Shown: piece by piece, positions 8,950-52,133 of the stretch | Layout: each line of letters starts with the position of its first letter | How positions within the stretch are numbered: the stretch's first letter is position 1 | DNA from: a virus | IMG/VR virus record: IMGVR_UViG_3300027822_000478 | Location: 1-53,348 of that record | DNA length: 53,348 nt | Strand: one strand, 5' to 3' | Position numbers and translations under genes: made by a program | Notes under the pieces: model-generated | Database searches by the model: none | What the model saw: only the letters and a program-made list of their open reading frames with translations | Told to the model about the DNA's origin: nothing

Positions 8950-9348
8950 ATGTTAAATAAAATATTTTTAATTGGCAATGCGGTTGCTGATCCAGAAACA
9001 AAACAAATGCCGAATGGTAATGCAGTTACTAATCTAAGGTTAGCAACATCAAGACGATGGAAAGACAGTAACAATGTAAAGCAAACTGAGACAGAATACC
9101 ATCGTATCGTATTTTTTAATAAGCTTGCAGAAATAGCTGGCGAGTATGTTAAAAAAGGAAGGCAGTTATATATCGAAGGTCGTATAAAGACAACGAAATA
9201 TACAGACCCAGGCGGCAATGATAAATATAGTACTGAAATTATAGGGAATGAAATGCAAATGTTAGGTCGTCGTGATGACCAACAAACATCTAATCCACAA
9301 TATAGTTCAGGCAGTCCAGATTTGCCTGATGATGACATTCCTTTCTAG
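8950..9348 (+). CDS. ssb: Single-stranded DNA-binding protein
   Basis: 132 residues. The OB-fold runs from MLNKIFLIGNAVADPETK through the EYHRIVFFNKLAEIAGEYVKKG segment to about residue 110. A flexible Gln/Ser/Asn-rich linker ends in an acidic DDDIPF tip, the docking site for partner proteins in bacterial SSBs. It has its own AAACGAGG motif 8 bases before the ATG. As part of the recT-exo-ssb set it protects and organises single strands during phage replication and recombination. Confidence 0.93.
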   Translation: MLNKIFLIGNAVADPETKQMPNGNAVTNLRLATSRRWKDSNNVKQTETEYHRIVFFNKLAEIAGEYVKKGRQLYIEGRIKTTKYTDPGGNDKYSTEIIGNEMQMLGRRDDQQTSNPQYSSGSPDLPDDDIPF

Positions 9349-9357
9349 TTTAATAAA

Positions 9358-9431
9358 ATACCCCCAGTATCAGGCAAAGAATACTGGGGGCATAGTGACC
9401 ATGACTAAACGAGACTGAGGAAGAATGGTCA
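9358..9431 (+). other. Two adjacent hairpins, one displaying the AAACGAG motif in its loop
   Basis: Hairpin 1 is a perfect 10-bp stem with a 10-base loop (CCCCCAGTAT 9361-9370, ATACTGGGGG 9381-9390) and no T-tract after it. Hairpin 2 pairs TGACCAT (9396-9402) with ATGGTCA (9425-9431); its 22-base loop contains TAAACGAG and GAGGA, the motif that precedes many early genes here. No gene starts directly after. It could be a small RNA, an mRNA stabiliser after ssb, or a decoy for an RNA-binding regulator. Confidence 0.5.
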
Positions 9432-9733: not shown

Positions 9734-9774
9734 TAAAATATTACAGTAGTAAAACAAAACGAGGATAAAACGAG

Positions 9775-10374
9775 ATGAAAAAATATATTATAAGTTTAGT
9801 ATTATTGATGGTTGCCACTAGCTCACAAGCAGTAGTGACTTTTGAATTTGAAGGTATGTTTGGTGATGTGGACAGTAAATTGTCTGATGCATTCAAGGTC
9901 GGTGATAAATTTTATGGAAGTTATTCATTTGATGAAAATACAAAACCATCAAGTGAATTTCCTGTTCTGGTGCTTGAGGATTCGGTAACCAGAATGGATT
10001 TTGATAGTTCTAATTATGTAGCCTCTGCAAATAATGGGAATATTATTTATGATGTTGAGGATTACCCGTATTTTGAAGCTAATTCAATAGGCGAATCAAT
10101 CCAGGCGTTAGATGTTAATGGTAACAAATTGGAACGAATGGCATTTTCTTGGGACAATCCAAATGACGTATTTGATATAGATGAAATGCCGTATAAATTT
10201 TTGCCTGATAATGCTTATTTTTCGTTAGCTTTTCATAATGAAGATGGTTATTTAGATGTGTTAGGTTCGGTAACATCAGCTACTGTAGCTCAAACGCCGA
10301 TACCTGGAGCAGTGTGGTTAATGGGGTCAGGCCTTGTTGGTTTGTTAGGTTTAAAGCGCAGCAAGGCGGTGTAA
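9775..10374 (+). CDS. Exported protein with VPLPA/PEP-CTERM-like sorting signal
   Basis: 199 residues. A Sec signal peptide (MKKYIISLVLLMVATSSQA) is predicted to be cut after Ala19. The mature part resembles PEP-CTERM cargo: FEFEGMFGDVDSKLS then FKVGDKFYGSYSFD. The C-terminus has the tripartite sorting signal: PIPGAVW motif (about 175-181), a Gly/Leu-rich membrane helix, and a basic LKRSK end. In hosts with exosortase such proteins are processed and sent to the cell surface or exopolysaccharide layer. Two AAACGAG copies precede the ATG. Finding this on a phage is unusual; the exosortase would have to be the host's. Confidence 0.8.
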   Translation: MKKYIISLVLLMVATSSQAVVTFEFEGMFGDVDSKLSDAFKVGDKFYGSYSFDENTKPSSEFPVLVLEDSVTRMDFDSSNYVASANNGNIIYDVEDYPYFEANSIGESIQALDVNGNKLERMAFSWDNPNDVFDIDEMPYKFLPDNAYFSLAFHNEDGYLDVLGSVTSATVAQTPIPGAVWLMGSGLVGLLGLKRSKAV

Positions 10375-10703
10375 TGGAATCGGTCAGGTTTTTTAATAAG
10401 GATTTGACCGACTTTTCCTTGGATGATTCAGGTCGAACAGTTATTGTAGGCGCTTTGAATGATGAGGAAGCAATGAGTATTATTACTTTTTTAGAGGCTG
10501 AGAAAAATCAATTAACTGAAGAGGTAAAAAAATATAAAAACATAGTAAGAACCTATGATGGAATAGGAGCGTTAAGCCGCTGGATCGTTCGATTAATGGG
10601 TTTTGATTTCGATAGTAGTGATGTTGAATTAAATAAACAACAAACTGTTTTCTGTGGGATTTGTGATGTTGTTTTTTTGAATAAATTAAAAGATAAGGGT
10701 TGA
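10374..10703 (+). CDS. Hypothetical protein
   Basis: 109 residues from the ATG at 10374, which overlaps the stop codon of the exported protein (TAATG). A start 60 bases upstream in the same frame would overlap that gene deeply and is less likely. A helical, charged middle (FLEAEKNQLTEEVKKYKN) suggests a short coiled coil. A CGIC pair near residue 97 could bind metal or form a disulfide. Not recognised. Confidence 0.55.
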   Translation: MESVRFFNKDLTDFSLDDSGRTVIVGALNDEEAMSIITFLEAEKNQLTEEVKKYKNIVRTYDGIGALSRWIVRLMGFDFDSSDVELNKQQTVFCGICDVVFLNKLKDKG

Positions 10704-10704
10704 A

Positions 10705-10869
10705 ATGACCTTAAGAGAAAAAATAGAAGAAATATTGGTAAAAGATAAACCAGAAGATGTTGCCAAAAATATTTGTTTAATGCTTGAAGAAGAAATGTGT
10801 TTATCTGGTAATGGTTGGTTTGATGATGATGAGATATTAACTCAGATAATTATTGAAAAAGAACTATGA
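10705..10869 (+). CDS. Small hypothetical protein, tandem paralogue A
   Basis: 54 residues beginning MTLREKIEEILVKDKPEDV. It shares length, the MT-x-R-E-x-I-E start, a central Ile-Cys-Leu motif and a W-x-D-x-D segment with the next gene, so the two look like an old tandem duplication. Its stop overlaps the next start (ATGA). Unknown function. Confidence 0.5.
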   Translation: MTLREKIEEILVKDKPEDVAKNICLMLEEEMCLSGNGWFDDDEILTQIIIEKEL

Positions 10870-11030
10870 CTTTTCGAGAAGTAATAGAAAATAAAATTAA
10901 AAATAACCGTGGTAATGAAAAACAAGCAGCTATAGATATTTGTTTGTTTTTAAATAGCGAAAATAGCTTGCTTAAAATATCTTGGTTGGATGTTGATAAA
11001 GAATTGGCTAAGTTAATGGCGCGTAGGTAG
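10866..11030 (+). CDS. Small hypothetical protein, tandem paralogue B
   Basis: 54 residues beginning MTFREVIENKIKNNRGN, with the same size and motif order as the preceding gene (ICLFL, then SWLDVDKEL) but a basic C-terminus. Start and upstream stop overlap by four bases. Function unknown. Confidence 0.5.
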   Translation: MTFREVIENKIKNNRGNEKQAAIDICLFLNSENSLLKISWLDVDKELAKLMARR

Positions 11031-11063
11031 TTATGAGTACTTTAATCTGATTAAGATTTATTA

Positions 11064-11423
11064 ATGTTTGAAGAAAAAAAACACCCACAAAGAACAGTGA
11101 CTCAAAATGCTAGTTTGCATAAATATTGTACATTACTGTCTGACGGGATGAATGATGCAGGCTATGATCAACGCATGGTAATAGAGCAATTTAAGGAAGG
11201 ATTCAATATACCCTGGACAATGGAAAGCGTAAAACATATATTCAGAATAATAGCAAAAGCAATGTACGATTGTAAGTCAACGGCTGATCTTGATACCGTT
11301 CAAATTCAAGAGGTTTACCGTGTATTTGATGCGCGAATGAGTGAAATAACAGGTATAAGTATAGCGTGGCCGAGTAAGGATGCAATGATTGAAGAGGCAA
11401 GGAATGCTGAATTACCAAAATAG
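11064..11423 (+). CDS. NinB-like recombination-associated phage protein (tentative)
   Basis: 119 residues. The RTVTQNASLHKYCTLL opening, followed by a helical segment with IPWTMESVKHIFR and a final VYRVFDARMSEITGI, resembles phage proteins annotated as NinB-like or as unnamed early proteins. NinB binds single-stranded DNA in lambdoid phages. The order of motifs fits, but overall similarity cannot be judged here. It precedes the promoter that drives the Rha-like gene. Confidence 0.5.
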   Translation: MFEEKKHPQRTVTQNASLHKYCTLLSDGMNDAGYDQRMVIEQFKEGFNIPWTMESVKHIFRIIAKAMYDCKSTADLDTVQIQEVYRVFDARMSEITGISIAWPSKDAMIEEARNAELPK

Positions 11424-11433
11424 AAATAATAAC

Positions 11434-11462
11434 TTGCGCAAATAGGCAAATTAAAGTAATAT
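11434..11462 (+). promoter_or_regulatory. Rightward phage promoter, variant
   Basis: AATAACTTGCGCAAAT with TTGCGC at 11434-11439, 17-base spacer, TAATAT at 11457-11462. It shares the ATAACTTGC block but diverges after it. The GTG start of the Rha-like gene is 29 bases downstream. Confidence 0.55.
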
Positions 11463-11490
11463 AGGTTCGTATTTAAGTAGGTTATTTAGT

Positions 11491-12207
11491 GTGAACTCAA
11501 TAGTAGAAATAAAAAAAGATAAGGTTCTCGTATCTAGCAAAACAGTAGCAAAGTTATTTTGTGTTGAGCATAGAGCTGTTTGTAAATTAATATCAAAGTA
11601 TATTGATAGGTTTATTTCAAAACTCGATGGCATTTTAAATGACGGCGAGTTTTTGACACCAAGTATAGGAAGAAAAAGTCAAGAATATTGGTTAAATCAA
11701 GATCAATTTATTTTTCTTGCTACATTAATGCGTAACTCAGATGTATCAGTAGCAGCTAAGGATGCAATAGTATCGGATTACTCAAGAGTTAGAAAGTTAT
11801 TAGCTGAGCTTGTAGTTCGTAAAGGCGACCAAAAGTGGTTAGAAGCTAGGCAAACGGGAAAAATAACAAGAAAAGATGAAACTGATGTTATAAAAAAATA
11901 TATTGAATATGCGAAAAAGCAAGGCAGTAAATCTTATAATTGGTACTATGTTAGTTTAACCAAAATGCAAAACGCCGTATTATTTAATATAGATGGTTCT
12001 TTTAAAAATATAAGAGAAATGTGTGATGAAAGGCAATTGATGGTTTTATCTGTTTGCGATGAAATAATAAAAAACACATTATTGGAAGGCATGAAGTTAA
12101 ATATGCCATATAAAGAAATATTTAAAAAATGTAAATTAAATATGATTTCTTTTGTTGAAATGCATGGTCGTTCAGATATCGTTTCTATGATTCAGTGCAT
12201 AGAATAA
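11491..12207 (+). CDS. Rha-like phage regulatory protein
   Basis: 238 residues with a GTG start. The N-terminal 100 residues have the Rha/ORF6N pattern: VSSKTVAKLFCVEHRAVCKLI, then a RKSQEYWLNQDQFIFLATLMR segment. The C-terminal part is helical and basic and may be a second DNA-binding or Kil-type domain. Rha-type proteins act as phage regulators or antirepressors. It has its own variant promoter just upstream and the HNH-like gene starts one base after its stop. Confidence 0.65.
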   Translation: MNSIVEIKKDKVLVSSKTVAKLFCVEHRAVCKLISKYIDRFISKLDGILNDGEFLTPSIGRKSQEYWLNQDQFIFLATLMRNSDVSVAAKDAIVSDYSRVRKLLAELVVRKGDQKWLEARQTGKITRKDETDVIKKYIEYAKKQGSKSYNWYYVSLTKMQNAVLFNIDGSFKNIREMCDERQLMVLSVCDEIIKNTLLEGMKLNMPYKEIFKKCKLNMISFVEMHGRSDIVSMIQCIE

Positions 12208-12534
12208 ATGGCAAATTATAGAAATAGAGAATTACTAGATTTAGCTCATTATCATAATGAATGCATGTTTCAAATACCTGGTAGCTGTATAGGTTATTCA
12301 ATGTTAGGATTAGAACCCGCTCATAGCAATGAGTTAAGGCATGGTAAGGGCACAGGAATAAAGTCTCACGACTACATGCACGTCATGGCTTGCCTTAATT
12401 GCCATCGGGAATATGATTCTGGAACTAGATTCAATAAACAAGAAAAGCAACGGTTATTTATTGAGGGATGGGAGCGGACTATTAGCTTTTATTTCACAGA
12501 AGGTTTGATTGGATTAACTGAAGGTAATGAGTGA
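12208..12534 (+). CDS. DUF1364-type HNH-like nuclease domain protein
   Basis: 108 residues. Zinc-ligand and nuclease-like motifs appear in order: CMFQIPGSC (Cys19, Cys27), a PAHSNELRHGKGTGIKSHD core (His39, His45), and ACLNCHREYDSG (Cys62, Cys65, His66). This matches the DUF1364 family near recombination genes of lambdoid phages, predicted to be a nuclease related to HNH enzymes. It abuts the Rha-like gene without a gap. The catalytic role is family-based inference. Confidence 0.75.
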   Translation: MANYRNRELLDLAHYHNECMFQIPGSCIGYSMLGLEPAHSNELRHGKGTGIKSHDYMHVMACLNCHREYDSGTRFNKQEKQRLFIEGWERTISFYFTEGLIGLTEGNE

Positions 12535-12580
12535 GTTAAAAAATTTGAAAATAGATAGTTTAATTAAACGAGGGATTTAT

Positions 12581-13180
12581 ATGAAAAAATTATTATTGTT
12601 ATTTTTTATAAGCAGCGCAAATGTTTCGGCATCAGCAATTGATACCGCAGAAGAAGGTGTTAATGAATTAATGGCTCAAACGCTTATTGATGTTAGGTTT
12701 TTAGATAATGCGGAGGTTAAAAACAAAGATTACCAGGTTATAGATGATGAGGTAGAGTTATTTTCTTTATTTGAACCTTTTCAAAGTGATTCAATTGTCA
12801 ATTTATTTTTTGTTGATGAAATAAACGCTTGTAGTGGTGAGTTTGCAGGGTTTACGGGTTGTTCAGTTAATAATTCAATAGCCGTTACTAATATCGGGCA
12901 GTTTCAGGCTGAATTAAATACGCATGAATTAGGTCACATTTTGTCATTAGATCATATAGATGAACCAAATAATATTATGAGGCTATTGGATTTTGGCAAT
13001 ACTTTATTTAATAATGATCAAATAGACGCAATGCTTAGCTCTGATTTTGTTCAAGTGGATTCTAATGGGTTTTTTGTTGAAGTAAAGCCGATATTAGTTT
13101 CAGCGATTCCATTGCCGCCATCAAGTATTATGTTTCTTAGTGGAATTGTCACGTTGTTAGTAAGAAGGATTAAAAAATGA
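12581..13180 (+). CDS. Exported zinc metalloprotease with VPLP-type C-terminal sorting signal
   Basis: 199 residues from the ATG at 12581, chosen because TTAAACGAGG lies seven bases upstream and because it exposes a signal peptide (MKKLLLLFFISSANVSASA). A zinc site HELGHILSLDH (His115, Glu116, His119, His125) and a following N-I-M at Met133, a Met-turn, mark a metzincin-like protease; Ser replaces the usual Gly in the HExxHxxGxxH motif. The C-terminus IPLPPSS, hydrophobic helix and RRIKK forms a PEP-CTERM-like signal. Cys84 and Cys94 may pair. It probably acts at the host surface. The hydrolase gene overlaps its stop. Confidence 0.8.
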   Translation: MKKLLLLFFISSANVSASAIDTAEEGVNELMAQTLIDVRFLDNAEVKNKDYQVIDDEVELFSLFEPFQSDSIVNLFFVDEINACSGEFAGFTGCSVNNSIAVTNIGQFQAELNTHELGHILSLDHIDEPNNIMRLLDFGNTLFNNDQIDAMLSSDFVQVDSNGFFVEVKPILVSAIPLPPSSIMFLSGIVTLLVRRIKK

Positions 13181-14055
13181 GAAAATATTTTTATTCAATA
13201 TTTACAGTATTAATTTTAATAAACCCAGTTTTAGCATCGAAACAATTGCCTGTGGAAGCGGAAGTAATTACACTTGCGCAACGTGGTGACAAATCGGATG
13301 TGTTTTATCCTGTCAGTGATGATAGAAAATATCCCGTTATTGCTGTATTACAGGGCGCATTAGTTGACAAACAGTATTATAGTCAGCTCGGGGAAAGATT
13401 GGCGATTTATGGTTATATTGTGGTAATACCCAATCATTTCCAGTTTGGTAAATTATTTACTGATCAATTTGTTATTAATGACGTATTAGCACAAATGGTA
13501 ATTGAAGATAATAATAATGATTCTCCGTTATCAGGTAAAATAGATACGGAAAACATGGGTGTTATTGGGCATTCATCGGGCGGTGCAGCTGGATTGTTTG
13601 CATTAGAGGGTAGTTGTATACCTCCGTTCTGTTTTGGCTTTTACGACAGGCCAGAAGCATTAAAAATAGGTGCATTTTATGGAACAAACACATGTTTTAT
13701 TGGCGGGGATGCGTCAAGTGAACACTGTGTTAGTTTTTCTAATCAAGGAGGAATGCAGTACGATGTCGATATAACTGATCCTGTTGTTTTTATTCAGGGA
13801 AGTAAGGATGGCGTATCGACACCAGGTGAAGGCAGATCAACTTATGAATTATTGGATGGTTTTAAGCGTTTTGTTAAAATAAATGGCGCGAATCATTATG
13901 GAATAACCAATGTTAATAATCCAGAAGGAGCAAGTCCTGATTCGAGTGACCCAAAAGTTAGTCAGGAAAAGTCAATTAATCAAATTGCGAAAAAAATAAA
14001 TCAAAATTTCAAGAAGTTTTTAAAAACATCGGTTGGGAAAAAAGAATGTGACTGA
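13177..14055 (+). CDS. Secreted alpha/beta hydrolase (chlorophyllase/dienelactone-hydrolase-like)
   Basis: 292 residues. Signal peptide to about Ala20 (INPVLA-S). The hydrolase fold is clear: VIAVLQGALVDKQYYSQLGERLAIYGYIVVIPNH, a nucleophile elbow GHSSGG with Ser133, an acid Asp211 in QGSKDGV and a His240 in NGANHYG, a full Ser-Asp-His triad. The likely substrate is an ester of low molecular weight or a surface polysaccharide, but this cannot be read from sequence. The start overlaps the metalloprotease stop (ATGA), so both are co-translated and exported. The gene ends exactly where a minus-strand gene remnant begins, suggesting insertion by recombination. Confidence 0.85.
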   Translation: MRKYFYSIFTVLILINPVLASKQLPVEAEVITLAQRGDKSDVFYPVSDDRKYPVIAVLQGALVDKQYYSQLGERLAIYGYIVVIPNHFQFGKLFTDQFVINDVLAQMVIEDNNNDSPLSGKIDTENMGVIGHSSGGAAGLFALEGSCIPPFCFGFYDRPEALKIGAFYGTNTCFIGGDASSEHCVSFSNQGGMQYDVDITDPVVFIQGSKDGVSTPGEGRSTYELLDGFKRFVKINGANHYGITNVNNPEGASPDSSDPKVSQEKSINQIAKKINQNFKKFLKTSVGKKECD

Positions 14056-14802: not shown

Positions 14803-15009
14803 ATGAAAATAGAAGGTAAGGAATTAAGTAAAGAGGAAAATTATTTGGATCTGGTTACTTACGTACCGCATCATGCAAAAGGTGACTTATCGCATCCTGA
14901 CTGCGAGCAAGGAGTTATTATTTCATTTAATGATACTGGCGTAAGTGTACTCTATGTGAGCAGCAGGTCAGTTCAAATGACTGATCCTACGGATTTGGTT
15001 TTTGGGTGA
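14803..15009 (+). CDS. Hypothetical small phage protein
   Basis: 68 residues. The segment GDLSHPDCEQGVIISFNDTGVSVLY and a final TDPTDLVF resemble a short beta-rich protein found in many phage early regions, often described only as conserved. No signal peptide. The stop overlaps the start of the next gene. Confidence 0.6.
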   Translation: MKIEGKELSKEENYLDLVTYVPHHAKGDLSHPDCEQGVIISFNDTGVSVLYVSSRSVQMTDPTDLVFG

Positions 15010-19916: not shown

Positions 19917-20016
19917 TTCTTAAGCCTTTATATTATGTAAGTTAATGATAACTATAGTATAATGAATAGATTAATATTTATATTAAATACGATAATTGAG
20001 ATTAAATCACAAAAAC

Positions 20017-20655
20017 ATGATAGAAAATAAAGAAATATTTATTGAGTACTTAATATCTAGTGAACTGATACCAGATGAAAATAATAATCGCACACATACA
20101 AGAGAGCAAATAGAATCAATAAAATCTAGTATTAAAGAGTTTGGATTTACGAATCCAATTCTTGTAGATGAAAATAAAGAAATAATAGCAGGTCATGCAA
20201 GGTATGAAGCATCACAAGGTTTAGGATATGAAACTGTTCCCTGTGTAACTTTATCAGGATTAACAGAAGTTCAAAAAAGAGCTTATGTTATTGCAGACAA
20301 TCAATTAGCTATAAACGGAAGTGATTGGGATTTAGATAAATTAAGGCAAGAAATACAGTATTTAGATGACGTTGGGTTTGATACTGATTTACTTGGGTTT
20401 GAAGATGAAGCTATGCTGGATTTATTAAATAATGTAGATGGTGTCGATTTACCTATTTTAGCTGATGGAGATAAAGAGCCATTTCAACAAATAACCTTTA
20501 CATTACACGATGAACAACATGAAATTATAGTCAATGCTTTAACTCTTAGTAGAACTAACCCGTTAGTTGATACAGGAATGAATGATAATAGTAATGGGAA
20601 TGCCATTACTTTAATATGCAACCAATGGTTAGAGGCGAAACATGCCAACAGCTAA
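20017..20655 (+). CDS. ParB N-domain protein paired with the Mom-like gene
   Basis: 212 residues from the ATG at 20017 (a TTG at 19996 is an alternative; neither has a good Shine-Dalgarno). Residues 15-130 form a ParB/Srx-type domain with the IIAGHARYEA box and VQKRAYVIADNQLA. The C-terminal part includes QITFTLHDEQHEIIVNAL. The N-terminal domain is strikingly similar, also in DNA, to that of the ParB-methyltransferase fusion at 31856, so one is a recent duplicate of the other. The 3' end overlaps the Mom-like gene by 14 bases. ParB domains in phages are often attached to DNA modification enzymes; a targeting role is inferred. Confidence 0.75.
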   Translation: MIENKEIFIEYLISSELIPDENNNRTHTREQIESIKSSIKEFGFTNPILVDENKEIIAGHARYEASQGLGYETVPCVTLSGLTEVQKRAYVIADNQLAINGSDWDLDKLRQEIQYLDDVGFDTDLLGFEDEAMLDLLNNVDGVDLPILADGDKEPFQQITFTLHDEQHEIIVNALTLSRTNPLVDTGMNDNSNGNAITLICNQWLEAKHANS

Positions 20656-21415
20656 AGATATCGTTATTAAATCCATAGCCGCTACAGATGCCAGGCGCAT
20701 TATTAAAAGGTTACATTACAGCGGTAAGGTAGTTAATAATTCTGTTTTACATTTTGGCGTTTTTTTAAATAATAAATGTGAAGGTGTTATGTCTTATGGC
20801 TCACCTTTAGATAAACGTAAGGTTTTGTCTTTGGTGGATGGTACGGGGTGGAATGAAATGTTTGAATTAAATAGGATGGCATTTAGTGAAAAGCTGCCAC
20901 GTAATTCTGAAAGTAGAGCGTTAGCTGTTTCTTTTCGTTTAATAAAAAAACATTATTCACATATTAAGTGGATATTGAGTTTTTCAGATGCAGCTCAATG
21001 TGGTGATGGTGCAATTTATAGGGCAAGCGGGTTTGTATTAACGAAAATAACTAAGAATAATCAAATTATTGAGTTTCCTGATGGACTAAGGGAAACAAGA
21101 TTGGTTCTTACCGATGCAAGAAGACCAAGACGTTTAGAAATAGCTAAAAAATATGGGTTAAAAGTAGGCGGCGCTTCATCTTTAAAGCCATTTATTGATA
21201 TTGGAGCTAAACCAATTGATGGTTATCAACTTAGATATATATATTTTATAGATAAAAATTATAAGCAAAAATTAACCGTGCCAATAATCCCTTTTTCAAA
21301 GATTGACGAAATGGGTGCAGGAATGTATAAAGGTTTAAAGCGTGTTACAAAGGCTATCTCTGATGACCAATTAGAGAGCGGCGGTGCGATACCGACCAAC
21401 ACGCTCCAATATTAA
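20642..21415 (+). CDS. mom: Mom-family DNA (adenine) hypermodification protein
   Basis: 257 residues. The family core is present: HYSGKVVNNSVLHFGVFL (about 25-42), GTGWNEMFELNRMAFS (67-82), RNSESRALAVSFRLIKKHY (87-105) and ILSFSDAAQCGDGAIYRASG (111-130), an acetyltransferase-like fold. Phage Mu Mom converts adenines to a methylcarbamoyl form and shields phage DNA from many restriction enzymes. The second half is more divergent and may bind DNA. Its start overlaps the ParB-like gene. No com-like regulator was noticed next to it. Strong family match; the actual modification and target sequence are unknown. Confidence 0.85.
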   Translation: MPTAKDIVIKSIAATDARRIIKRLHYSGKVVNNSVLHFGVFLNNKCEGVMSYGSPLDKRKVLSLVDGTGWNEMFELNRMAFSEKLPRNSESRALAVSFRLIKKHYSHIKWILSFSDAAQCGDGAIYRASGFVLTKITKNNQIIEFPDGLRETRLVLTDARRPRRLEIAKKYGLKVGGASSLKPFIDIGAKPIDGYQLRYIYFIDKNYKQKLTVPIIPFSKIDEMGAGMYKGLKRVTKAISDDQLESGGAIPTNTLQY

Positions 21416-27405: not shown

Positions 27406-27699
27406 ATGATTATAGAACGTGGTGGAGCAAAATTTTGGGCACCGGATGACTCTGCAAAAATAGTTAATGATAAGTGGGAAGTTAACCCAAAAGAATTAAT
27501 ACCCTATGATTTGTGGTTAAAACAACAAGATATAAAAGAAAAAGAAACAAAAAGGAAGGAATTACAAAAACAACTTGATGAGCTTGAATTTGCTGATGTT
27601 AATATAAAAAACGAATTACTTGATACTGCTGTTGAGCAATATAATGAACAAATAATAGCAGAGCAAGTAAGTATTCAAAATAAAATAGATAGTATTTAA
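27406..27699 (+). CDS. Small coiled-coil protein at start of the tail-fibre genes
   Basis: 97 residues. The C-terminal two thirds is a charged helix (DIKEKETKRKELQKQLDELE). Short proteins of this form, opening with RGGAKFWAPDDS, are found beside phage fibre genes as possible chaperones or structural parts. The final A of its stop overlaps the next ATG. Confidence 0.55.
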   Translation: MIIERGGAKFWAPDDSAKIVNDKWEVNPKELIPYDLWLKQQDIKEKETKRKELQKQLDELEFADVNIKNELLDTAVEQYNEQIIAEQVSIQNKIDSI

Positions 27700-29531
27700 T
27701 GGCAATAACATTAGGCTACATTGACTCAGGTGGTCTTAGAGAGATTCACCGCAATGAATCGACTGTTTATGATCCTGACATATTAGGGTTAAGCACATGG
27801 AGTCCTGCTTCTGCGACAATGGCGGTTGGTGATTATATTGTCTTTCAACAAGACAATGATCGTGGTGGGCGTTTTAATAAATTAATTATTGATGTTTTTA
27901 CAGCAGTTGCAGCGACCACATTTACTGGTATTTGGGAGTTATGTTCTCCGAGTGGTTCTTATTCAAATCCAAACTGGGTGGCGTTAACAGGTGTTATTGA
28001 TGGCACTAACGGATTTACCACAGCGGGAACTGCACTTGAATTAACGTTTGATCTTGATGATGTTAATTGGGGTAATTACGCAAATCCTTATCTTGGAACG
28101 ACAGGCCCGTTGCCGTATCATTATGCATGGAACATTCGTTTTAGGGTAACAGCTATATCTGGCGTTACTAATAATGGATCAGTGACTAAGGTATTAGCAG
28201 AGTGCAGAGAAATTGTTTTAGATGGTGCAAATACATATACAATGCAGGATATTTATGACGAGGATGTGTTGCAGGGCTGGGGGCTTATTGTAAAAAACAG
28301 TGAATATAATTATTCAGTAAACACAGGATTACGTGGAATTGATACGTTAACAACGTTTGTATCAAAAAATGAGCAAATTGTGTTTACAAATAACTATTCT
28401 CCTTATTTAAAATGTGTTTGTAATTATGGTGAATTAATAAATAATGAGTCTTTAAGCGGAACACATTTAGTTATTGAGGCTAGTAATTCAAGTTATATAA
28501 ATAGGCATATTTTTGGTGCGAATGCAAACATTTATGATACAACATTTAAAATAGTTAAATATGGATCATTAACTTACCAGGGGTTTTGGGGGGGCGGTCT
28601 TGCTGAGTTGAGTGGGCAGTTAATTGGTGACAGTTTATTTAGTGGCTGGAGGAATTTTCAGTTTAAGGATACATCTGTGTTTTTAGTTAATGTAACTTTA
28701 ATAGGCGCGCAGATAGAGCCTGTAGTTTCAACAATGATCGATTGTGTTGTAAAAGATTCTTCACAAGCAATAAGGCAGACGACTAGCAATGATGGTGATG
28801 TTCATAGATTTAACATGAGTGCTATTACTAGCTATGAAATAAATCCATATAAGCCAACTGACACATGGGGGTTAAGTTTGATTGATTGCCAGTATAATTC
28901 ACTTACATTTGATCAAAAAGCGTTTTGGACTAAGCCAAATGGAACGCCAGGGGCTTATTATTTAGATTTAAAATTAAACTTTATTGTGTCACTTGGTATT
29001 TTTATAAAAGATGAATCTGGCAATGCAATTGATGGGGCAGACATAAAGATTTATGATAAAAACAATAGTTTATATGATACATTTACCTCTTATGATGGTT
29101 ATGTGGGTTATGATAAACGAGTGTTAACCGATGCAACAGCTTCATCAGTTACTTTTACAGGGGGGCTTGATGGAACAGCTGGAAGAGGGAAAGAATTTAT
29201 TGTCATAAATGGTTCTGGAGTGGGTGGTCGGAGTGTTATATCAGAATCGTTTGCAGCATCATTTAATTATGCGGAAACTTTAAGTATTATTCCTGTTGTA
29301 AATGATGAGATTGTTATGGTGCCTTATGTTACATTTGGTTATGATTCTCCTTCATCAACAACCGCGAATGCATATTCAATTTATACGGAAAATACGCCAT
29401 TTAAATTAGTAATAACGAAAGAAGGTTATGATCCAATTATAATGGATAATGAGCCGCTCATGGAGAAATTAGATACGGAATTAATCATGATTTCATCACC
29501 TGTTGTCATAGATCAAGAAGGAATGTTATGA
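27699..29531 (+). CDS. Fibre- or tailspike-like structural protein
   Basis: 610 residues, beta-rich with many Asn, Thr, Gly and aromatic residues. Residues about 200-430 have the repeating short-strand look of a parallel beta-helix. The C-terminal third (about 430-600) contains an Ig/CNA-B-like domain (GIFIKDESGNAIDGADIKIY). It is followed immediately by another fibre-like gene with overlapping start and stop. A virion surface or adhesion role is inferred; no catalytic residues were recognised. Confidence 0.6.
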   Translation: MAITLGYIDSGGLREIHRNESTVYDPDILGLSTWSPASATMAVGDYIVFQQDNDRGGRFNKLIIDVFTAVAATTFTGIWELCSPSGSYSNPNWVALTGVIDGTNGFTTAGTALELTFDLDDVNWGNYANPYLGTTGPLPYHYAWNIRFRVTAISGVTNNGSVTKVLAECREIVLDGANTYTMQDIYDEDVLQGWGLIVKNSEYNYSVNTGLRGIDTLTTFVSKNEQIVFTNNYSPYLKCVCNYGELINNESLSGTHLVIEASNSSYINRHIFGANANIYDTTFKIVKYGSLTYQGFWGGGLAELSGQLIGDSLFSGWRNFQFKDTSVFLVNVTLIGAQIEPVVSTMIDCVVKDSSQAIRQTTSNDGDVHRFNMSAITSYEINPYKPTDTWGLSLIDCQYNSLTFDQKAFWTKPNGTPGAYYLDLKLNFIVSLGIFIKDESGNAIDGADIKIYDKNNSLYDTFTSYDGYVGYDKRVLTDATASSVTFTGGLDGTAGRGKEFIVINGSGVGGRSVISESFAASFNYAETLSIIPVVNDEIVMVPYVTFGYDSPSSTTANAYSIYTENTPFKLVITKEGYDPIIMDNEPLMEKLDTELIMISSPVVIDQEGML

Positions 29532-31330
29532 GATACGCTAAAACGGAAACGACCAATATTTTAGTTAATTATCCAAGTGGTGGATCAATAACGATTGATG
29601 TTTATCGGTTATCTGATAATGTTCAAGTTGTTACCGCAGCAGCGATGTCGAGTATATCAACTACAGGTATATATAAATACACATTAAATCAAACGGTAGC
29701 GTCAAAAGAAGAATATTTATGGATTTCTACTGATGGAACATTAACGAGGTCGGGTAAGGTTGTTATATCCGGTTATATGGATGATATACAGGCAGATTTA
29801 GATAATCCAAGCCAATATCAAACTGATATTACTGGATTAACCGCTAGTCACGTGGCAACTTTAGCGGCGATAGCTGCTTTAAATGATTTCGATCCAACTG
29901 CTGATCCAGTGGCTAATGTAACTTTGGTTGGCACAACAACGGCCAATACGGATATGCGTGGAACTGATGGCGCTAATACAACTGCTCCTGATAATGCAGG
30001 AATAGCCGCCATTCCAACGAATCCGTTATTAACAACTGATACGCGATTAAATAATTTAGATGCAGCGATTACATCACGCGGGGCAACTGGGGAATATGAT
30101 GTGAGGATGATAGCATTACAAGCTGATTTGGACAATCCTACGCAATATATGGCTGATCTATCTTCGTTAAGCTTAGAGGCAACAAGTCAATCGATATTAA
30201 CAAAGGCAAATACGCTAACAAATTATGATGATACGGCACTTACTGCCTTAATTAATGGAATAAAAACTAAAACGGATCAATTTACGTTCACCGGTGTAAA
30301 TGTTAATTCAATTGCACAAGTAGTTTCTGATAAAACAGGTTATGCCTTAACAGCAGCAGAACGTACAGCGATAGCAGTTGCGGTTGAGCAGGCTATAATA
30401 AATGACGCGGATGGGCAGGCTGTCCTTAATGCGATAGTGGGGGCCATAGGTAACCAAAACGTTGATGAAGTTGCACTTGTTGCCGCGGTTCGTGCGGATT
30501 TAGAAAGGGCTGGAGGTAAAATAGACTTGATTCCAACGACAGATAGCGTTGCTGACTTAACAGGTGTTCAAAATTCAATTAATAATCTTAATGATTTTGA
30601 TCCTAGTGCAGATACGGTTGCTCATGTAACCCTTGTTGATACCACGACAACTAATACAGATATGCGGGGGAATGATATAGCGCCTGATAATGCTGGAATA
30701 GCTGCAATACCAATTAATCCAGTATTGACGACGGATGCAAGGCTTAATAATTTAGATGCAACTATATCATCCCGTGCAGTAACGGGTGAATATGATGTAA
30801 GAATGCTGGCTATGCAGAATGATCTTGATAATCCTAATCAATATAAGGCGGATATAACAGGACTAAATGATATTGGTATTGCGGATATTCAGACAGCATT
30901 AACAAATCAAGGTTATACGGTTGGCCGTGCATCAAATCTTGATAATATGGATGTTGTTGTATCATCGCGAGGTGCAACGGGTGAGTATGATGCAAGATTT
31001 GTAACGGTACAAGCTGATCTGGATGATGTGAGTCAATATAAAGCTGATTTAACGCCGGTATTAACGGCAATAGGTAATTTAAATGATCTAGCTATTGCAG
31101 AAATACAAACCGCATTAACTAATCAAGGATTAACGGCAGCAAGAGCATTATTATTGGATCATCTTGATAAAGATATTTCAGCGGTTGAAGGATTGTCAGA
31201 GGTTAATTTGCATTTAGCACTAGATAGTTATGTTAACAAGTCAGATTATAAGGATGGTCCAATATCTATAGCAGATAAGGATGATATTGCCAGTAAATCT
31301 GTTCAAGCGTTAAAAGTAGAGGTTTTCTAA
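29528..31330 (+). CDS. Repetitive fibre-like structural protein
   Basis: 600 residues. An N-terminal beta-sandwich (about 1-95) is followed by a long segment rich in Ala, Asp, Asn and Thr with a large internal duplication: the block from NDFDPTADPVANVTLV to LQADLDNPTQY recurs about 235 residues later (NDFDPSADTVAHVTLV to MQNDLDNPNQY), and shorter IQTALTNQG units repeat near the C-terminus. Such repeats build elongated virion fibres. It overlaps the previous gene by four bases. A role at the head or tail surface is inferred. Confidence 0.6.
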   Translation: MRYAKTETTNILVNYPSGGSITIDVYRLSDNVQVVTAAAMSSISTTGIYKYTLNQTVASKEEYLWISTDGTLTRSGKVVISGYMDDIQADLDNPSQYQTDITGLTASHVATLAAIAALNDFDPTADPVANVTLVGTTTANTDMRGTDGANTTAPDNAGIAAIPTNPLLTTDTRLNNLDAAITSRGATGEYDVRMIALQADLDNPTQYMADLSSLSLEATSQSILTKANTLTNYDDTALTALINGIKTKTDQFTFTGVNVNSIAQVVSDKTGYALTAAERTAIAVAVEQAIINDADGQAVLNAIVGAIGNQNVDEVALVAAVRADLERAGGKIDLIPTTDSVADLTGVQNSINNLNDFDPSADTVAHVTLVDTTTTNTDMRGNDIAPDNAGIAAIPINPVLTTDARLNNLDATISSRAVTGEYDVRMLAMQNDLDNPNQYKADITGLNDIGIADIQTALTNQGYTVGRASNLDNMDVVVSSRGATGEYDARFVTVQADLDDVSQYKADLTPVLTAIGNLNDLAIAEIQTALTNQGLTAARALLLDHLDKDISAVEGLSEVNLHLALDSYVNKSDYKDGPISIADKDDIASKSVQALKVEVF

Positions 31331-31855: not shown

Positions 31856-33121
31856 ATGAATGAGCTGACTATTGAGTATTTGCCGGTTAATGAGTTAAAG
31901 CCTTATGATAATAATAGCCATACGCATACTCAGGAACAAATTGCATTAATAACTAACAGTATGCATAAATTTGGGTTTACAAATCCTATTTTAATTGATG
32001 AAAAAAAAGAAATAATCTCAGGCCATGCAAGGCTTGAGTCATCACATAAAGTAGGTTTTGATAAGGTTCCAACGATTACACTGTCAGATTTAACTGAAGA
32101 TCAAAAAAGAGCTTATGTGATAGCAGATAATCAATTAGCTAAAAACGGTAGTGGCTGGGATTTAGATAAACTTAAATTCGAAATTCAATATCTAGATGAT
32201 GTCGGTTTTGATACTGATTTGCTTGGATTTGATGATGATTTTTTAGGTGATTTAATTTTTGAAGAGGTTGAAGGATTAACGCCTGAAGATGCTGTTCCTG
32301 AAGTTTCTGATGAGACAATTAGTAAGCGGGGTGATCTTTGGTTATTAGATGGGCACCGAGTTTTATGTGGGGATAGTACAAGTATTGAAGATGTGGAAAA
32401 GCTTTTAAATGGCAAAACTATTGATTTGGTATTTACTGACCCGCCTTATGGAGTTAGCTATGCCGATAAGAATAAGTTTTTAAATGAAATAGATAAAGGC
32501 AATAGAAATCAAACACCTATTGAAAACGATCATTTAACAATAGAAGAAACAGGGCAATTATGGGCTGATGTGTTTTCTTTATGGTCACCATATATGGCAG
32601 ATTATTCTAGTTATTATATTGCAAGTCCACAAATGGGTGATTTGTTTTCAATGATGATTTTGATAATGAATGAAAATCGCATGCCTTTACGTCATCTGAT
32701 TGTATGGAATAAAAATAATCACGTCTTAGGGCGTTGTGATTATAATTATAAACATGAACCTATTTTGTATGGGTGGAATAATCGGCATAAATTTTATGGG
32801 AAAGGTGAGCATAAATTTTCTGTTTGGAATATAGATAAGCCATTAAAGAATGATTTACATCCAACAATGAAGCCGGTTGCATTGGTTGAGAATTGTATTA
32901 AAAATAGCTCAGAAAATAATCAAATTGTAGCGGATATGTTTTTAGGATCAGGCACATCAGTTATAGCCGCAGAAAAAAACAATCGTATTTGTTATGGTAT
33001 GGAATATTCGTGTGTGTATGTTGATTTAATAGTTAAGCGCTGGCAAGATTACACAGGGAAGCAAGCTATATTAGAATCTACAGGTGAGACTTACAATAAT
33101 AATTCTGATAAAAATGCATAA
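31856..33121 (+). CDS. ParB domain fused to a DNA methyltransferase
   Basis: 421 residues. Residues 5-130 are a ParB N-domain (ISGHARLES box, QKRAYVIADNQLA), almost the same as in the gene at 20017. Residues 155-410 are a beta-class amino-methyltransferase: LVFTDPPYGV (motif IV, DPPY at 195-198) comes before ADMFLGSGTSVI (motif I, about 359-370), typical of N6-adenine or N4-cytosine enzymes. Such fusions are common beside phage terminases and probably protect phage DNA or mark it for packaging. No cognate nuclease is present. The target sequence cannot be predicted. Confidence 0.88.
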   Translation: MNELTIEYLPVNELKPYDNNSHTHTQEQIALITNSMHKFGFTNPILIDEKKEIISGHARLESSHKVGFDKVPTITLSDLTEDQKRAYVIADNQLAKNGSGWDLDKLKFEIQYLDDVGFDTDLLGFDDDFLGDLIFEEVEGLTPEDAVPEVSDETISKRGDLWLLDGHRVLCGDSTSIEDVEKLLNGKTIDLVFTDPPYGVSYADKNKFLNEIDKGNRNQTPIENDHLTIEETGQLWADVFSLWSPYMADYSSYYIASPQMGDLFSMMILIMNENRMPLRHLIVWNKNNHVLGRCDYNYKHEPILYGWNNRHKFYGKGEHKFSVWNIDKPLKNDLHPTMKPVALVENCIKNSSENNQIVADMFLGSGTSVIAAEKNNRICYGMEYSCVYVDLIVKRWQDYTGKQAILESTGETYNNNSDKNA

Positions 33122-51455: not shown

Positions 51456-51639
51456 ATGAATTAAAAGTATTGAATATAACAACGCCAAAAATTTCAAGAT
51501 AGATGTTGAATAAAGATAAATTAATACATAGTAATGAGTTTGTTTCATCTTCATTGTAATTTCTTTCTATACTACAAAAGTCAATAAGTGGGCCGCCATC
51601 GACTAAGCTAATTTCTATAAAACAAAATCGTGTAATCAT
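51442..51639 (-). CDS. Hypothetical protein
   Basis: 65 residues with four cysteines and a hydrophobic C-terminal half (YLEIFGVVIFNTFN). It is the last gene of the leftward cluster and overlaps the convergent tail gene by 14 bases and the nuclease gene by four. Not recognised. Confidence 0.45.
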   Translation of the reverse strand: MITRFCFIEISLVDGGPLIDFCSIERNYNEDETNSLLCINLSLFNIYLEIFGVVIFNTFNSFKNE

Positions 51640-52133
51640 TTATATCCTTTAAATAGCCGTCTCCAGACCCAAGGTGGCATTGGATTTTTTTTATGCCATA
51701 AACCCATACCTTGTTTGCGTGCCTTTTCTTCAGCTTCGTAATATGATTTATCTCTAGCAAACCTAGGTTCTACCCAGGCAGCACCAACGCTAACCATTCG
51801 TTTATTAATATCTTGACCTTTTAAATAAAGCCTTACTACATCGCGGTCATACGTTCTTTTGCCTGTATGCTTTAATGTAACGATTTTTTGATGGATTAAG
51901 GTTTGTAATGTTCGTTTACTGAATTGACCGTATTGTTGACCTATCTCTGGCGCATCTATATCAGCTAAACGTATTTCTGATTTTTTATTATTTCTGCTTA
52001 ACACAATAGCGCCATCACCATCTATTACACGTACAACGGCATATTCTTTGGGCCGGTTTATAAACGATATTGCGTCCCATGACCAAAATAAAAGAACTAA
52101 AGCCATTATGGAAAAGATTATTATTGTTTGCAT
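51636..52133 (-). CDS. Membrane-anchored thermonuclease (SNase-like)
   Basis: 165 residues. An N-terminal hydrophobic segment (about 3-17, TIIIFSIMALVLLFW) is a signal anchor or signal peptide. The SNase fold shows VIDGDGAIV (Asp38, Asp40), IRLADIDAPE (Arg55, Asp58, Asp60, Glu63) and TYDRDVVRLY (Arg97), the catalytic set of staphylococcal-nuclease relatives, plus a VGAAWVEPRF segment. It would act in the periplasm, for example against incoming foreign DNA or to recycle host DNA. It is on the opposite strand to the virion genes. Confidence 0.85.
   Translation of the reverse strand: MQTIIIFSIMALVLLFWSWDAISFINRPKEYAVVRVIDGDGAIVLSRNNKKSEIRLADIDAPEIGQQYGQFSKRTLQTLIHQKIVTLKHTGKRTYDRDVVRLYLKGQDINKRMVSVGAAWVEPRFARDKSYYEAEEKARKQGMGLWHKKNPMPPWVWRRLFKGYK

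Follow-up and report, generated by a model that had tools for sequence, protein, structure and literature searches.

Genes with exosortase-type sorting signals in a siphovirus-like phage and other uncultured phages

Can a phage place its own proteins on the surface of the infected cell by way of the exosortase of its host? Exosortase cargo, a large group of bacterial surface proteins tied to exopolysaccharide (EPS) and aggregation, is poorly understood. Once PEP-CTERM proteins have crossed the inner membrane, exosortase processes them and they end as surface or EPS components (PMC11980579, PMC9850573); EPS and floc formation involve them (PMC9850573). The question is raised by a 53,348-base IMG/VR record, analysed at its full length and called the window below, in which two genes, P1 and P2, were proposed in a preliminary description to end in exosortase-type signals. 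That observation is confirmed. The interpretation attached to it, that the phage installs a protease and other proteins on the cell surface by the host sorting route, perhaps to block superinfection or to break down matrix, is partly supported, the suggested benefits being conjectural. The wider occurrence of such genes in phages is more interesting than the P1/P2 locus itself.

The accessory block in the phage genome

The window contains terminase, portal, major head, tape-measure, RecT/RecE-type recombination and single-stranded DNA-binding protein (SSB) genes and, by this gene content, the virus is a siphovirus-like phage. A 5.7 kb block lies between the SSB gene (8950–9348, + strand, like the block genes given with coordinates) and an N6-methylase-like gene at 15006. 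It comprises, in order, a small membrane ORF, P1 (9775–10374), small ORFs, a NinB-like recombination gene (11064–11423; weak match to phrog_72, E 0.008), a Rha/antirepressor-type regulator (11491–12207; phrog_2657, E 2e-28; PF09669 over the cut-off), a YbcO-like HNH nuclease gene (12208–12534; phrog_131, E 2e-20), P2 (12581–13180) and P3 (13177–14055). Membership of a single operon, as originally suggested, is shown by overlapping ends only for YbcO, P2 and P3; P1 lies 2.2 kb upstream of P2, with the NinB-like and Rha genes between.

The nearest relative, G003, is a 48 kb contig with a head protein 75% identical and an SSB gene 51% identical to those of the window. The block is missing from it, the SSB gene and the counterpart of the gene at 15006 being only about 450 bp apart; the block is therefore accessory DNA, though integrated. 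For this relative, the proposed check for the same genes in related phages is negative. The block is known from one contig only, and two further fragments of the same virus population, which is also present in the 3300001750 assemblies, stop short of the region.

The motif AAACGAG has 14 copies in the window where 4.9 are expected, a count reached in none of 100 shuffles; it probably serves this phage in ribosome binding or as a leader. Two copies precede P1 (9757 and 9768, within 9757–9774, + strand), one precedes P2 (12566) and one the SSB gene (8935, 15 nt before the start). Copies are mainly on the + strand (5480, 7013, 8935, 9407, 9757, 9768, 12566, 17679, 21632 and 22253), several of them directly 5′ of start codons. 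Base composition is continuous across the block, with no break. The occurrence of the block in one contig and its absence from G003 would be expected if it were host DNA joined by mis-assembly or transduction and no trait of the phage. The NinB-like, Rha and YbcO phage genes between P1 and P2, the leader and composition common to all, and tagged genes near the terminase in independent phages (described below) make this origin highly improbable.

Several other features of the window were recorded. A strong hairpin at 9358–9393 (ATACCCCCAGTAT...ATACTGGGGGCAT), terminator-like on the minus strand, lies between the SSB gene and the block. Positions 1–276 are part of a Rha-like gene resembling the C-terminus of the product of 11491–12207, which suggests that the Rha-type regulator is duplicated. 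Two related ParB-like genes (19996–20655 and 31856–33121) are 75% identical in DNA across 334 bases. The first is followed by a Mom-like modification gene (20642–21415), and the second forms a fusion with a DNA methyltransferase. Two large proteins of 610 and 600 aa, encoded at 27699–31330, have no PHROGs match and no Pfam match over the cut-off; the second contains internal repeats of about 71% identity. A staphylococcal nuclease-like protein is encoded close to the right end (51636–52133, minus strand; PF00565, 69 bits). A defence-family scan gave nothing relevant.

Sorting tails and predicted enzymes

P1 has a signal peptide (residues 1–19, judged by eye), a domain of unknown function of the kind seen in chromosomal PEP-CTERM proteins, and a C-terminal signal, TPIPGAVWLMGSGLVGLLGLKRSKAV (10294–10371, + strand), consisting of a motif, a helix and a basic end; these are the sequence features of PEP-CTERM/VPLPA-CTERM proteins. 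Many chromosomal tails match this signal, often with 50–65% identity. With a profile of 17 chromosomal tails, the P1 tail scored 42.7 bits, and the best control scored about 10. The controls were the remaining ORFs among the 222 in the window, 3,376 ORFs of other phages and 4,440 shuffles (about 7,800 from the last two); the 17 tails were retrieved via P1, making the profile partly dependent on it, though the margin far exceeds such bias. By this score, the P1 tail is an unmistakable VPLPA/PEP-CTERM signal.

Comparison with the TIGRFAM models had been named as one check, scores below threshold being a refuting outcome. The P1 tail alone scored 15.8 with TIGR02595 (cut-off 16) and 14.3 with TIGR03370 (cut-off 25.35), missing both, which formally counts against the proposal; however, 4 of 10 chromosomal PEP-CTERM tails also fail both curated cut-offs, so this outcome does not discriminate and the shortfall is no argument against P1.

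P1 matches 47 of 369 class-level genomes, almost only via residues 165–197 and often through several paralogues in each; a distant, full-length-like counterpart is present in locus L051. Exosortase genes were found in 40 of these 47 genomes, compared with 126 of the 369 overall (Fisher p ~1e-14). Sorting of P1 by exosortase is likely on this evidence.

The listed ORF of P2 opens at 12527, within the overlap with the YbcO gene. The likely true start is the ATG at 12581: AAACGAGGG stands before it, with the AAACGAG leader at 12566, and a typical signal peptide, MKKLLLLFFISSANVSASA, begins there. The predicted product is a secreted mini-metzincin. The zinc site that the preliminary description had recognised can be read from the sequence as HELGHILSLDH followed by the Met-turn NIM (12923–12979, + strand); it fits the metzincin pattern HExxHxxxxxH, Ser replacing the Gly that is usual in HExxHxxGxxH. 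Pfam and the PDB give weak metzincin matches that concentrate around the zinc site, PF00413 being below its cut-off. Single-sequence structure models gave pLDDT values of 35 and 31 and were uninformative, the value of 35, for P2, being too low to read a fold.

The C-terminal signal of P2, SAIPLPPSSIMFLSGIVTLLVRRIKK (13100–13177, + strand), is degenerate and its helix is short; alone it scores 10.5 bits with the 17-tail profile, at noise level, like a shuffle. Its assignment comes from homology. A peptide-pattern search in GTDB species genomes returned no P2 match; a whole-genome search then recovered a chromosomal family, with a relative in one convincing genome of the 369-genome sample (E 1.8e-21) and then, within the gammaproteobacterial order of that genome, homologues in 5 of 36 genomes. 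Four aligned homologues are 28–32% identical over the alignment (A1), in which the signal peptide and the zinc site correspond, as do the PILV/PVLV linker, the P-x-P, the helix and the basic end. The zinc-site residues are conserved in most sequences; H133, E134, H137, N149 and M151 in the zinc site and Met-turn are invariant, and so are P195, P197 and R214 in the tail. The homologue in locus L061 ends in VPLPAGSLLLLSALLVIGFVASRRRR and a short extension, scoring 23.6 bits with TIGR03370 (cut-off 25.35). Judged from short loci around them, the chromosomal homologues have neighbours that look like normal chromosomal genes. A further match, in L062, lay in a ribose-5-phosphate isomerase-like frame and was treated as chance. 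Since its homology to the VPLPA/VPIP-tailed chromosomal metzincins runs from end to end, P2 is, by sequence, a phage copy of this metzincin-plus-tail family, and its sorting by exosortase is probable. Of the two tails originally proposed, that of P1 is upheld by score, and that of P2 is probable by family.

P3, which had been described as a secreted hydrolase with a Ser-Asp-His triad, is confirmed as a predicted secreted α/β hydrolase of PETase/cutinase/chlorophyllase type (PF12740, 42.2 bits; cut-off 28). It has a signal peptide and lacks a sorting tail. Ser133, Asp211 and His240, read from the sequence, are the probable catalytic triad, and together with the profile score above the cut-off they place P3 among PETase-like hydrolases; matches to PETase and cutinase structures in the PDB (E 1e-10) are limited to residues ~40–145. 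No close homologue of P3 was found in 73 genomes, mainly tail-matched or from the order containing the P2 family.

Two other readings of the tails have to be weighed here. P1 alone might be exosortase cargo, with P2 and P3 forming a separate periplasmic protease/esterase pair that aids lysis or release; the 2.2 kb between P1 and the overlapping YbcO, P2 and P3 genes and the weak P2 tail would suit this division. It is nevertheless quite improbable, given the VPLPA/VPIP-type tails on the P2 homologues and the TIGR03370 score of that in L061. Alternatively, both tails may be plain C-terminal membrane anchors, relics of captured bacterial genes, that leave P1 and P2 unsorted on the periplasmic side of the inner membrane. 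The degenerate P2 tail with its short helix and noise-level score and the missed TIGR02595 and TIGR03370 cut-offs speak for such anchors; the P1 tail, however, has lost no position of a working-type signal, P2 keeps the P-x-P and the basic end in the alignment, and full tails are retained in other phages as well. We consider plain anchors rather unlikely, though they are the most serious of the alternatives to sorting of both proteins by a host exosortase.

Tagged genes in other viral contigs

The preliminary description regarded the use of the sorting route by a phage as a new kind of host-surface remodelling. As a one-off novelty this does not hold: a strict DNA pattern for P-x-P-x-A-x-W-L...G-S-G-L matched eight further IMG/VR stretches, seven of which read as tail-bearing ORFs, and a VPEP-type pattern matched at least 120 stretches. 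In the first 80 of the latter, the motif lies at the C-terminus of an ORF in 79 loci, most with a plausible signal peptide. PEP-CTERM genes therefore recur in many uncultured phages, the phenomenon is broader than first proposed, and the P1/P2 locus is one case of it. The contig counts are not counts of independent events, as they include several near-duplicates, and some contigs may carry host flanks.

Phage genes stand near several of the ORFs from the strict pattern, including terminase and portal genes in L066, an endolysin gene in L069 and RecE/Erf and terminase genes in L064. A phrog_2 terminase is also present on 29 of 50 tested PEP-CTERM contigs. The distance from the tagged gene to the terminase has a minimum of 149 bp and a median of 8.1 kb and is within 5 kb in 10 cases; in L141, L092, L129, L066 and L089 it is 149 bp to 2.1 kb. 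L066 carries two tagged genes in tandem, directly upstream of the terminase small subunit, terminase and portal genes.

The ectodomains of the tagged proteins (L063–L070, L076–L155, P1 and P2) form 30 similarity groups, of which the two largest contain 31 and 13 proteins; P1 and P2 are singletons. Close relatives of P1, P2 and P3 were not found in viral contigs or annotated phages. Two phage PEP-CTERM representatives had no match among 50,697 annotated phages, nor did a generic PEP-CTERM tail match annotated phages, the 28-residue query being insensitive. A literature search, without preprints and most subscription papers, returned no report of phage-encoded PEP-CTERM proteins. Exosortase cargo is a recurrent class of phage genes that has apparently gone unreported.

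No exosortase was detected in the window, in agreement with the preliminary description, or in any of the 52 virus records examined; such an absence is expected if the host provides the enzyme, which would then have to process the tails.

Proposed route and known systems

According to the proposed mechanism, a siphovirus-like phage would have acquired host-type surface cargo genes and placed them in its early/middle region. Expressed early, P1 and P2 would leave the cytoplasm by the Sec route, directed by their signal peptides, and the C-terminal helix would retain them in the inner membrane until the infected cell's own exosortase cleaved them at the P-x-P motif. The cleaved proteins would then reach the outer surface or the exopolysaccharide, where P2 could act as an anchored metzincin protease and P1 as a non-enzymatic matrix or surface protein, with P3 serving as a soluble periplasmic or secreted esterase. 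Their joint effect would be a changed envelope or EPS on the infected cell before it lyses. All steps beyond export, namely processing, surface delivery, catalysis and benefit to the phage, we infer.

That a host exosortase delivers phage cargo to the outer surface or EPS appears fairly probable. It is the best explanation in view of the P1 tail score, the exosortase enrichment, the end-to-end homology of P2, the interleaving with phage genes and the common AAACGAG leader; it is weakened by the degenerate P2 tail, the tail-less P3 without a close homologue, the presence of the block in one contig and the lack of a close prophage, since a search with the major capsid protein revealed none in the 369 class-level genomes or in GTDB species genomes. 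The capsid relatives, a Shewanella phage at 51% and a Comamonas prophage at ~40%, indicate no host. The broadest reading, that uncultured phages routinely carry exosortase cargo and remodel the host surface or EPS by the host PEP-CTERM route, here with a surface-anchored metzincin, as a viral strategy not previously described, is put forward tentatively. If true, viruses would gain a route to change the envelope and matrix of Gram-negative hosts, the spread of PEP-CTERM protein families would be accounted for in part, and PEP-CTERM genes in a phage would predict a host with exosortase.

Surface proteins with LPXTG signals in Gram-positive prophages are cargo that a phage supplies to a sorting enzyme of its host; here, the enzyme, signal and envelope all differ. 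Exosortase-sorted PEP-CTERM/VPLPA-CTERM proteins (EpsH/XrtA family) share the signal peptide, P-x-P, helix, basic end and an ectodomain of unknown function with P1, which differs in being encoded by a phage that has no exosortase of its own and in narrowly missing the curated cut-offs. As in the metzincins (matrixin M10 and reprolysin M12B), P2 has HExxHxxxxxH and a downstream Met-turn, but it is very short, has Ser for the conserved Gly, carries a sorting tail and has no recognised pro-domain. The PETase/cutinase-like α/β hydrolases (PF12740) resemble P3 in the core and the Ser-Asp-His residues, with the similarity restricted to residues ~40–145. The myxosortase-dependent metalloprotease MXAN_2677/2678 (NF041905) is likewise a small metalloprotease that ends in a sorting tag; its match to P2 is weak, covering 23 residues at the zinc site, and the invariant Cys borne by the MYXO-CTERM tag (PMC11980579) is absent from P2.
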